A model generated the notes under the pieces. It saw nothing but the letters and a program-made list of their open reading frames with translations. It had not been told where the DNA came from and searched no databases. From Candidatus Nitrospira nitrosa (GTDB lineage Bacteria > Nitrospirota > Nitrospiria > Nitrospirales > Nitrospiraceae), in contig NZ_CZQA01000001.1 of the NCBI RefSeq assembly GCF_001458735.1, forward strand, positions 868,001-932,000: a stretch of DNA of 64,000 bases, read 5' to 3'. This document shows, one piece after another, positions 36,265 to 39,250 of this stretch (position 1 is the stretch's first letter; each line of letters begins with the position of its first letter). The position numbers were made by a program, and so were the translations under genes.

Positions 36265-36456
36265 ATGAGAACCACGCTCAACATTGATGACCAGCTTCTC
36301 GCGCGCGCGGTGAAATTGACCGGAGTTCAAGAAAAAACGCAGCTGGTCCGCTTGGGACTTGAGGCCTTGATTTCACGCGAAGCGGCTAAGCGACTTGCTC
36401 GGCTTGGAGGCAGCGAGCCTCGTCTCAAAACTGTCCACCGACGCCGGTCGATGTAG
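36265..36456 (+). CDS. VapB-type antitoxin (orphan)
   Basis: 63 residues: 'MRTTLNIDDQLLARAVKLTG' is a ribbon-helix-helix DNA-binding start typical of the VapB/DUF2191 group, followed by 'EKTQLVRLGLEALISREAAKRLARLGG' and a basic tail. Such antitoxins normally precede a PIN-domain VapC gene. No VapC is present: the sequence after the stop has only a short 'LALIDTA'-like trace before non-coding DNA. It may be a solitary regulator or a remnant. A palindromic operator lies directly upstream. Confidence 0.8.
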   Translation: MRTTLNIDDQLLARAVKLTGVQEKTQLVRLGLEALISREAAKRLARLGGSEPRLKTVHRRRSM

Positions 36457-36582
36457 TCCTACTCGCACTGATCGATACTGCTACTCATCCTGACAGTTGC
36501 CTTTGGTCAGGGTCATAAGCGTCAGCTTCCACCTTGCGTTCATCAGAAAAATCCGTAGAATCTGGCACGGATGCAGCACATA

Positions 36583-36611
36583 CGTTCGTGGTGAGCCAGT
36601 CGAACCAGGAA
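36583..36611 (+). repeat. 29-bp direct repeat, left copy
   Basis: cgttcgtggtgagccagtcg followed by aaccaggaa, matching the copy at 37882 at 28 of 29 bases. The two copies bracket the TIR-FGE gene. Short repeats of the form ttcgtggtgagcctgtcgaa are, to my knowledge, scattered in many bacterial genomes, so the bracketing may be coincidental. Confidence 0.8.
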
Positions 36612-36639
36612 AGAATTTTGTGTCCAGCATCCGCATTGT

Positions 36640-37848
36640 GTGGCCATGAGCAAGATCCTAATTTCCTATCGCCGAGAGGATAGTGCCGATGTCACCGGTC
36701 GTATCTATGACCGACTTATCCAGGTGTTTCCACAGTCGGTCTTTCGAGATGTGGATTCGATTCCCTTGGGTATCGACTTTCGGACCTATTTGGATGAGCA
36801 GGTGGCCAAGTGCGATGTGTTTCTAGCGGTGATCGGACGGGACTGGCTCAGAGGGAAGGGGCGCAAGGGGAAGTCCAGGCTTGAAGACCCTGGGGATTAC
36901 GTTCGGATTGAAATAGAATCGGCGTTGAAACGGCAGATTCCGGTAATTCCCTTGTTGGTCAGTGGTGCCAAGATGCCTCCAGCAGAGCGGCTTCCAGCCA
37001 GTATTCAAGGCGTGTCCTACCGAAACGGCATTGTCGTCCGTCCTGATCCGGACTTTCATAAAGACATGGATCGGTTGCTTGCTAAGCTGATGCCGCCAGT
37101 TCGAGTCCTCAGTGAGCCTCAGTCGGAAACGGCTACTCTAACCAAGTCTCCATCTGTTGGGACAAAGCACATTGACCCTGCGGCACCAGTGGATATGGTG
37201 AAGGTTCGCAAAGGACTCTTCTTGTACGGCATTAATGAAAAACGCGAGACGATCTACCATGACTATTGGATCGACAAATACCCCGTGACCAATGAGAAGT
37301 ATCGGGCCTTCATTGAGGCGGGTGGTTATGAAAATCAGGCATGCTGGTCACCGGAAGGGTGGAAGTGGAAGACCGAAAAGAATATTACCCGTCCAGCATA
37401 TTGGTATGACAGCAAATGGGACAAACCCAATCATCCTGTCGTTGGCGTCAGCTATTACGAGGCGGAAGCCTATGCGAAATGGGCAGGCAAGCGGCTTCCG
37501 ACCGAGCAGGAATGGGAAAAGGCCGCCCGAGGCGAGGATGGGCGTCGGTATCCATGGGGTGAAGAATTCGATAAACAGAAGTGCAACAGTTATGAATCTG
37601 CTTATACGACCCCGGTCAGCCAGTATCCTCAAGGGGCCAGCCCTTACGGCTGCTACGACATGGCGGGGAATGTGTGGGAGTGGTGCACAAGAGGGTATGA
37701 CGAACAGAAGAAAGATACTCGCGTTATTAGGGGTGGATCATGGGGCTCTAGCTCTGGCATGTTATGTGTGTCCTACCGGGATTTGCGCGATCCAGACATC
37801 CGCTTCACCGACATGGGTTTTCGTCTAATCCAGGACATTAACGAGTAA
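36640..37848 (+). CDS. TIR domain - FGE-sulfatase (formylglycine-generating-enzyme-like) fusion
   Basis: 402 residues. Residues 1-150 form a bacterial TIR domain ('KILISYRREDSADVTGRIYDRL', 'FRDVDSIPLGIDFRTYLDEQVAKCDVFLAVIG', 'DYVRIEIESALKRQIPVIPLLV'); the glutamate in 'RIEIESAL' sits where the NADase glutamate of TIR enzymes is found. Residues ~195-400 are an FGE-sulfatase/C-type-lectin fold ('DYWIDKYPVTNEKYRAFIEA', 'RLPTEQEWEKAARG', 'GNVWEWC', 'RVIRGGSWGSSSGMLC', 'MGFRLIQD'). The C-terminal 'RGGSW...GFRL' segment occupies the position of the variable region in diversity-generating retroelement targets. No reverse transcriptase is in the window. A role in defence or signalling is inferred. 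Confidence 0.85.
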   Translation: MAMSKILISYRREDSADVTGRIYDRLIQVFPQSVFRDVDSIPLGIDFRTYLDEQVAKCDVFLAVIGRDWLRGKGRKGKSRLEDPGDYVRIEIESALKRQIPVIPLLVSGAKMPPAERLPASIQGVSYRNGIVVRPDPDFHKDMDRLLAKLMPPVRVLSEPQSETATLTKSPSVGTKHIDPAAPVDMVKVRKGLFLYGINEKRETIYHDYWIDKYPVTNEKYRAFIEAGGYENQACWSPEGWKWKTEKNITRPAYWYDSKWDKPNHPVVGVSYYEAEAYAKWAGKRLPTEQEWEKAARGEDGRRYPWGEEFDKQKCNSYESAYTTPVSQYPQGASPYGCYDMAGNVWEWCTRGYDEQKKDTRVIRGGSWGSSSGMLCVSYRDLRDPDIRFTDMGFRLIQDINE

Positions 37849-37881
37849 TCCTCTCCACGTTGTTCTTAGACCCGTTGCCGT

Positions 37882-37910
37882 CGTTCGTGGTGAGCCTGTC
37901 GAACCAGGAA
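37882..37910 (+). repeat. 29-bp direct repeat, right copy
   Basis: cgttcgtggtgagcctgtcg followed by aaccaggaa, differing from the copy at 36583 by one base (t for a at position 16). It lies 33 bases after the stop of the TIR-FGE gene. Confidence 0.8.
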
Positions 37911-37930: not shown

Positions 37931-39250
37931 CTACGCCACGCGTAGATTTCTGATCTCTCCCAATGTTTTCTCGATTTCAGCTGTTGAATTGATAAGGTTC
38001 GGCGCCAGCCTGGCGTATTTCGTCGCGTAGGGCGTCACACTGCCGACGATGCCGCGCTGCCGAAGTCTCTCCACGACCTGGCGAGGTGACATTCCCGCCA
38101 CCTCAAAACAGACGATTCCAGCCGACAGGTCCTGTGACATCGGTGTGTGCAGGGTGACATGTGGCATGGCGATCAAGCCTTGCTTCAGCTGCTGGTTCAA
38201 CTCGTAGATGCGCTGTGTCACTCGGGATTTTCCAATGGCCTGATGAAACGTGAAGGCTTCGTCCAGCGCCCAACGATGTTCGAAGGAATGGAACCCACCC
38301 GGGGTCATGTGGACTGATGGCGGGAGATCCTTCGATGATTTGTTCTCCATCCACAGGTCATAGGCCTGACTACTAAACGTTGGGATCGTGGCCCTGGCGA
38401 TTGGCCAGGCCTTCGGATGGCCCCAGACGAGGCCGGTGCCGCGTGGGCCGAACATCCATTTGTGGGTCCCAGCCGCCAGAAAATCGCAGCCGAGCTCACT
38501 GACGCGGAAGTCTTCGACTCCTAAGGCATGGACCCCATCCACGCAGAAGATGATCCGGTCCCGCTCGTCTCTTGAACGATTGATGGACTGGATGGCTAAC
38601 GCCATCTCATGAATCGGTAGTTTGAGCCCCGTGCTGGAATGGACCCAGGTGACGGCCACGATGCGCGTCATCGGGGTGATGCCCTTGCGCAACGACTCGA
38701 CGATTTCATCGCGAGACACTGTCTTGAGCGAGCGATAGAGGTGAATCTGTCGCACCATGGCGCCGGTCCGTTCAGCGCGGAGACGCAGCGCGGTTTCCGT
38801 CGAATAGTGGTCATGGGTCGTGGTCAAAATTTCCTGTTCGTTCCCTAGCTTGAGCCCGCCATAAAGGAGACCCAGCCCCATCGTCGTGCTGTCGGTCAAG
38901 GCGATATCGGTGGGATTGGCCCCCAGATACTCGGCAGCGGCTTGGAGCACCATCGCTTCCTGTTTCTCTTCATGGTCGAACCAATAGCCGATGGGGTCGG
39001 CATCCAGGCCGGCACGATGTCGTTCGATCGCCTCACGCACCGGGGTGGGATGGGATGCAAGGAAGAACGCAGCCAAGTGGATAAGCTGTGGACAGAGGGG
39101 GAACTGCGTCCTGATGTTCTCCCAGCTCTCAAACTTGCCCTGTGGTGATGATGGATTGGCCAGCGCACAAGGACGCGCATCGGCGAGTAGTGCTGCACCT
39201 AATGCGAGGCCTGTTCGTACCAGAAAGTCTCGGCGTCCCAGGTTGGTCAT
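37931..39250 (-). CDS. Tat-exported class V aminotransferase-like protein
   Basis: 439 residues. It opens with a twin-arginine signal 'GRRDFLVRTGLALGAALLADA' (residues 5-25), so it is probably exported folded, with PLP, to the periplasm. The PLP-dependent fold type I domain shows 'DSTTMGLGLLYGGLKL', 'VTWVHSSTGLKLPIHEM', 'FCVDGVHALG' and the PLP lysine in 'AAGTHKWMFGPRGTG'. This resembles isopenicillin-N epimerase and cysteine desulfurase relatives, but substrate and reaction are unknown. GGAGGAATT precedes the ATG at 39250. Confidence 0.88.
   Translation of the reverse strand: MTNLGRRDFLVRTGLALGAALLADARPCALANPSSPQGKFESWENIRTQFPLCPQLIHLAAFFLASHPTPVREAIERHRAGLDADPIGYWFDHEEKQEAMVLQAAAEYLGANPTDIALTDSTTMGLGLLYGGLKLGNEQEILTTTHDHYSTETALRLRAERTGAMVRQIHLYRSLKTVSRDEIVESLRKGITPMTRIVAVTWVHSSTGLKLPIHEMALAIQSINRSRDERDRIIFCVDGVHALGVEDFRVSELGCDFLAAGTHKWMFGPRGTGLVWGHPKAWPIARATIPTFSSQAYDLWMENKSSKDLPPSVHMTPGGFHSFEHRWALDEAFTFHQAIGKSRVTQRIYELNQQLKQGLIAMPHVTLHTPMSQDLSAGIVCFEVAGMSPRQVVERLRQRGIVGSVTPYATKYARLAPNLINSTAEIEKTLGEIRNLRVA

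Follow-up and report, generated by a model that had tools for sequence, protein, structure and literature searches.

Is the TIR-FGE gene near the middle of this stretch, which encodes a TIR domain joined to an FGE-sulfatase domain and is flanked by two 29-bp repeats, a target of a diversity-generating retroelement (DGR), and, if so, where is its writer? The gene was studied in a window of 64,000 nucleotides from Candidatus Nitrospira nitrosa, corresponding to C1:868001–932000 of a 4.42-Mb genome (G000) that is assembled in 15 contigs and is 99.99% complete. The features discussed below are collected in Table 1.

Table 1. Features of the TIR-FGE locus, in window coordinates.
Feature	Position	Strand	Basis or remark
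vapB-like antitoxin gene (neighbour, outside the receptor)	36265–36456	+	DNA identity to relatives
Promoter-like element of the TIR-FGE gene, TTGCGT-16 nt-TAGAAT	36534–36561	+	Conservation; promoter role putative
Hairpin repeat copy 1 (REP-like)	36583–36611	+	28 of 29 bases shared with copy 2; follows the promoter-like element and precedes the start codon
TIR-FGE gene	36640 (GTG)/36646 (ATG)–37848	+	402/400 aa
TIR domain	36646–37095	+	Pfam TIR_2, SARM1 alignment, structure model
Putative catalytic Glu, E89	codon 36910–36912	+	SARM1 alignment; conservation
Variable linker	37096–37185	+	pLDDT <50 at residues 158–175
FGE-sulfatase/C-type lectin fold domain	37192–37830	+	Pfam, structure model
DGR variable region (VR), core	37729–37827	+	Codon pattern, matches to template repeats
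Hairpin repeat copy 2 (REP-like)	37882–37910	+	Between TIR-FGE and aminotransferase genes
PvdN-like class V aminotransferase gene	37931–39250	−	Conserved synteny anchor

Domain structure and putative active site

The ATG is the likelier start of the gene, since the homologues begin with MSK, MSR or MTK. The N-terminal domain of the product matches Pfam TIR_2 (residues 6–134, 44.5 bits versus a cut-off of 28) and the C-terminal domain matches FGE-sulfatase (residues 185–397, 197.8 bits). A structure model based on an alignment of 70 sequences has a mean pLDDT of 90.8; a model based on 14 close homologues alone reached 53.6. Residues 1–151 of the model can be superposed onto SARM1 TIR structures (137 residues; Z 17.1, rmsd 2.2). 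Residues 178–398 match the DGR variable protein TvpA (2y3c; Z 25.1, rmsd 2.3) and EgtB (Z 29.9), with FGE matched as well. The domain assignment of the sequence-only reading, a TIR domain joined to an FGE-sulfatase/C-type lectin fold, is thus confirmed by both Pfam and the structure model.

The stretch of SARM1 containing its catalytic glutamate, DWVHKEIVTAL, pairs with DYVRIEIESAL in the TIR-FGE protein, which places E89 (numbered from the ATG) at the TIR active site. This residue is unchanged across 14 homologues. The protein therefore shares with SARM1 the TIR fold and the position of the catalytic glutamate, the two features of a TIR NADase, but SARM1 is eukaryotic, is about 25% identical and has a different sensor. 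Structure prediction had been suggested as a check for an intact NADase glutamate; it returned a SARM1-like fold, and the glutamate is aligned. By analogy, the TIR-FGE protein is most likely a putative NAD-cleaving or signalling immune sensor.

Formylglycine-generating enzyme requires two cysteines. The TIR-FGE protein has a lone cysteine in RGGSWGSSSGMLCVSYRDLRDPDIRFTDMGFRLIQDINE, its C-terminal RGGS segment, at a position where arginine is usual in homologues, and the FGE cysteine pair is absent. As this segment, which bears the pair in FGE, contains one cysteine, FGE activity appears unlikely.

A nearly identical TIR domain (75–78% identity) is also found joined to other C-termini, which include cadherin-like repeats and TPR (L138, L139, L140 and L142). 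These fusions of the same TIR to different C-termini are module shuffling within the genus.

The C-terminal variable region

The homologues have in common the pattern RGGSWxxxPxxLRxSxRxxxxxxxRxxxxGFRLVQD, in which the x sites are highly variable. In a codon test of 15 homologues, the mean entropies at bases 1, 2 and 3 were 1.59, 1.55 and 0.84 for the 15 variable VR codons; the corresponding values for 40 variable codons in the rest of the gene were 1.31, 1.32 and 1.38 (p = 3e-6). C occupies the third position in 151 of 224 VR cases, compared to 141 of 582 elsewhere in the gene. Variable first and second bases combined with a third base that is mostly C are the outcome given by AAC codons in a template. 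The similarity to template repeats (TRs) runs a little beyond the VR core on both sides, to about 37716–37836. When compared with the TR of a relative, G012, the VR of G000 is mismatched at 21 of 29 adenines and at 23 of 70 other bases (p = 3e-4); when compared with its nearest TR, it has 21 off-template changes in 68 positions, which makes it the second most decayed among the VRs compared. The features of a DGR variable protein that are present here are a C-type lectin fold with a C-terminal VR, adenine-biased TR mismatches and a fixed third base. As judged from these sequence patterns, the C-terminal segment is the VR of a DGR.

Writers and rewritten receptors in related genomes

Seventy-nine genomes of the same genus were searched for reverse transcriptases (RTs) and then scanned for template-like matches to the VRs. 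Cassettes consisting of bAvd, RT and TR were found in four genomes (G012, G011, G058 and G066), partial or broken DGR cassettes in another four (G017, whose record is partly masked, G020, G060 and G036), and a second cassette type in G015, G054 and G058. In the first four genomes, and partly in G020, the TRs adjoin bAvd (PF22296) and an RT with an IGNxTSQ motif, which corresponds to the SQ motif that marks DGR RTs (PMC3521204). Several cassettes adjoin STAND-type FGE targets. The TIR-FGE genes are located on other contigs and are thus trans targets.

The cleanest case is the TIR-FGE VR of G020, which differs from its own TR, located on another contig, at 0 of 71 non-adenine and 13 of 28 adenine positions. 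The VR of G009 relates similarly to the TR of G036 (mismatches at 0/68 non-adenine and 12/31 adenine positions). The cleanest pair is formed by the sister genomes G016 and G017, with 5 mismatches in the 1,089 bases of the gene before the VR (0.5%) versus 16 in the 100 columns of the VR, 14 of them at TR adenines; a one-base insertion within the G016 VR shifts the frame. Variation in this pair is centred on the C-terminal segment, the point that an alignment of related strains had been proposed to check. The suggestion that RGGSW...GFRL coincides with the position written by DGRs is borne out by the codon pattern, the TR matches of the relatives and this pair.

In an explanation without any DGR, the surface loops of an FGE/EgtB-like fold would owe their divergence to ordinary positive selection or to recombination. 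The scaffold residues (RGGSW, R and GFR) are indeed general in FGE proteins, and variation between them is seen in distant homologues too, but such divergence is at odds with the fixed third bases, the adenine-specific TR mismatches, the G020 counts and the G016/G017 pair. It is already contradicted by the TR matches and we consider it hardly credible.

The presence of an RT is no guarantee of rewriting, as G012 has a DGR, yet its TIR-FGE VR shows 25 off-template changes. Decaying DGRs also occur in the genus: a TR lies beside a broken RT in G036 (L288, G036:C189). G056 contains a TR (L293, G056:C54), and a DGR RT was not found in that genome.

An orphan, fixed target in the source genome

No RT and no template lies in the window, as originally reported, and the whole G000 assembly likewise yielded no DGR RT and no template. 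A search of this assembly with the DGR RT of G012 gave zero matches of any kind, hence no DGR-clade RT with the (I/V/L)GxxxSQ motif, and searches with VR and TR DNA matched FGE coding regions and, apart from these, only short sequences by chance; a whole-genome search for a DGR-type RT and a matching TR, which had been advocated, was thus negative for both. Between the TIR-FGE and aminotransferase genes, where the spacing in relatives would lead one to expect a DGR RT, none was found. The only RTs of G000 are Drt5, which exceeds the NCBIfam cut-off, and a Drt4/6-like protein, neither of which is a DGR RT; these two defence RTs are encoded at G000:C8:295765 and G000:C12:112047. Of the two possibilities offered by the sequence-only reading, diversification by an RT elsewhere in the genome is not upheld, whereas a once-variable receptor that is now fixed is strongly supported by the VR evidence in relatives.

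The VR allele is common to G000 and G034, with codon differences that are 10 synonymous and 6 nonsynonymous, while ∼20–27% of positions differ between the two TIR-FGE genes outside the VR; this argument for a frozen allele uses a single relative, whose TIR-FGE gene is frameshifted. The likeliest history suggested by this comparison is that the VR was written once, became fixed before G000 and G034 split, and was kept thereafter.

A second orphan DGR target of G000, a DUF4062-nSTAND1-FGE protein of 914 aa, is encoded outside the window (G000:C1:113341–116085; L159 4341–7085). Its VR is the only match to TR DNA in G000 and is much younger than the TIR-FGE VR, with 5 off-template changes in 69 positions relative to its nearest TR. 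A copy of the hairpin repeat described below is located ∼130 bp upstream of this gene.

The low count in this second target is one reason to consider whether the TIR-FGE gene is still an active target, rewritten in trans by a DGR on a phage, on a plasmid, in an unassembled stretch or in sister strains. Another is that several genomes lack a matching DGR RT although their VRs fit a known TR almost perfectly (no non-adenine mismatches in G009; 3/70 in G001), so that the loss or import of the writer would be recent there. A DGR could sit in a gap of the assembly (one assembly, 15 contigs), or other strains could carry it on a phage or plasmid. However, the TIR-FGE VR is decayed even with respect to its nearest TR, its allele is found in both G000 and G034, and the nearly complete genome has no DGR RT. 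Continued rewriting thus seems unlikely.

Proposed role and relation to known systems

Our preferred reading, to which we assign a probability of about 0.85, is that the TIR-FGE protein belongs to a Nitrospira family of trans DGR targets and is now an orphan with a fixed VR. Comparison with the relatives shows that, in an ancestor, a bAvd/RT/TR retroelement located elsewhere in the genome rewrote the lectin-fold VR. The writer and the template were then lost from the present genome, as seen in the assembly examined, and the remaining VR appears to change by ordinary, partly purifying substitution, as seen relative to one relative. The lectin-fold C-terminus may, by analogy, be a ligand-sensing surface. 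Binding of a ligand to this domain would most likely assemble or activate the N-terminal TIR, which would then cleave NAD+ or make a nucleotide signal against phages or other invaders.

Receptors of this kind are already known. The DGR-diversified conflict-system sensors of Thiohalocapsa PB-PSB1, described in work on multicellular bacteria (PMC10907252), also have a C-terminal CLec/FGE VR, TIR and STAND effectors and trans targets; DGR components are lost at some of their loci and MITE-like hairpin repeats occur at DGR loci. In contrast, the Nitrospira protein is a two-domain TIR-FGE protein without an NTPase and is mostly found in genomes without any matching RT. Cyanobacterial remote variable proteins, some of which have TIR-like N-termini (PMC7517822), are likewise encoded far from the RT, with an N-terminal signalling domain grafted onto the CLec domain, but they belong to another phylum, and the present TIR-FGE genome has no DGR. 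The FGS-domain conflict effectors of iSTAND/VMAP systems (PMC7159879) also tie an FGE-type C-type lectin domain to DGRs and TIR-type effectors; the TIR-FGE protein differs in having no MoxR-vWA or STAND domain. Treponema denticola TvpA has the same FGE-type C-type lectin fold with a C-terminal VR, but no TIR domain. The fixation of DGR targets has been raised earlier as a possibility (PMC3521204; PMC7517822). A literature search, thin on subscription journals, found no paper on the Nitrospira TIR-FGE family, and the family and its frozen members appear to be undescribed.

The TIR-FGE protein illustrates that a DGR-tuned TIR receptor can outlive its writer. Its family forms a natural series, which extends from perfect template matches (G020, G009) through VRs with 3–10 off-template changes to the old fixed allele of G000 and G034. 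This series makes the former ligand of the receptor, and the retention of a selected specificity after DGR loss, directly testable. More tentatively, Nitrospira DGRs might act as an episodic, temporary mutator, in which writer cassettes come and go while tuned receptors are long kept as fixed heritable specificities; the orphan VR proteins would then be a fossil trace of antigens selected in the past.

Flanking hairpin repeats

The gene is indeed enclosed by near-identical direct repeats, as first described. With up to 3 mismatches allowed, these two copies are the only ones in the window, with 0 expected from shuffles. The initial reading also considered that the 29-mer might be scattered genome-wide. 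This does not hold for the near-exact core, which occurs twice in the genome, both times flanking TIR-FGE, but it does hold for a looser family, TTCGNNNTGAGCNNGTCGAA, with 8 perfect and 14 perfect-or-near copies. The family consensus, TTCG-NNN-TGAGC-NN-GTCGAA-NNN, is palindromic. Its 3-bp stem covaries, with three main types (TGG/CCA, TGC/GCA and CCC/GGG), and is complementary in 81 of 96 distinct copies from the loci collected. The repeats are thus REP-like, being dispersed intergenic palindromes with compensatory stem changes. Inverted hairpin doublets, ∼52 nt apart, are frequent in Nitrospira loci (including L123–L139), and the copies per genome range from none to about 40. No copy was found near any of the six Y1 transposase-family genes of the genome, giving no link to a RAYT, and no mobilising transposase emerged for the family. 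A text search of the literature returned no paper with the hairpin sequence.

In most relatives examined, the −10 element is preserved 65–98 nt 5′ of the ATG; it is at −65 to −69 where the leader has no repeat copy and at −93 to −98 where it has one (G000, G056 and G020). The left copy is placed downstream of the promoter-like element and upstream of the start codon, which argues that the 29-mers are not cassette ends. A mobile cassette bounded by the repeats and carrying the TIR-FGE gene would fit with the two flanking copies resembling each other more than other genomic copies, with the frameshifted G009 homologue likewise having a copy on either side, and with a hairpin doublet filling the junction in G075, which has no TIR-FGE gene. 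However, the repeats do not enclose the promoter-like element, which G075 has retained despite lacking the gene, and the left copy is part of the leader. Nor is a repeat found within 1.5 kb of many homologues (L027, L028, L029, L031 and L033), and of 40 other copies sampled, just one is near an FGE gene. We regard such a cassette as quite improbable. The same dispersal of a palindromic family, outer promoter-like element and leader position speak against the repeats as part of the device; they are REP-like hairpins, one located in the leader and the other in the spacer downstream of the gene.

At 7 of 19 TIR-FGE loci, a copy lies no more than about 110 bp from the gene, which is above the genomic density, and 3 of the 8 perfect G000 copies are no further than about 130 bp from one or other of its two DGR-target genes. 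An apparent enrichment at FGE genes results partly from the choice of loci, as the 1/40 figure for further copies indicates. A role of the downstream hairpin as a DGR cruciform was considered and dropped, since the copies are dispersed and the G017 target, recently written and with an RT in its genome, has no copy within 1.5 kb.

Conservation of the locus

About a dozen relatives have TIR-FGE close to a PvdN-like aminotransferase gene, which points to an old position. At the same junction in G075, vapB, the aminotransferase gene and the promoter-like element are all present but TIR-FGE is missing. The DNA of the vapB-like gene is 86% identical in G075 and 76–77% identical in G016 and G017. No recognisable vapC partner lies beside the vapB-like gene of the window. 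In G016 and G017, a toxin-like ORF follows vapB, and TIR-FGE is located on the other side of vapB.
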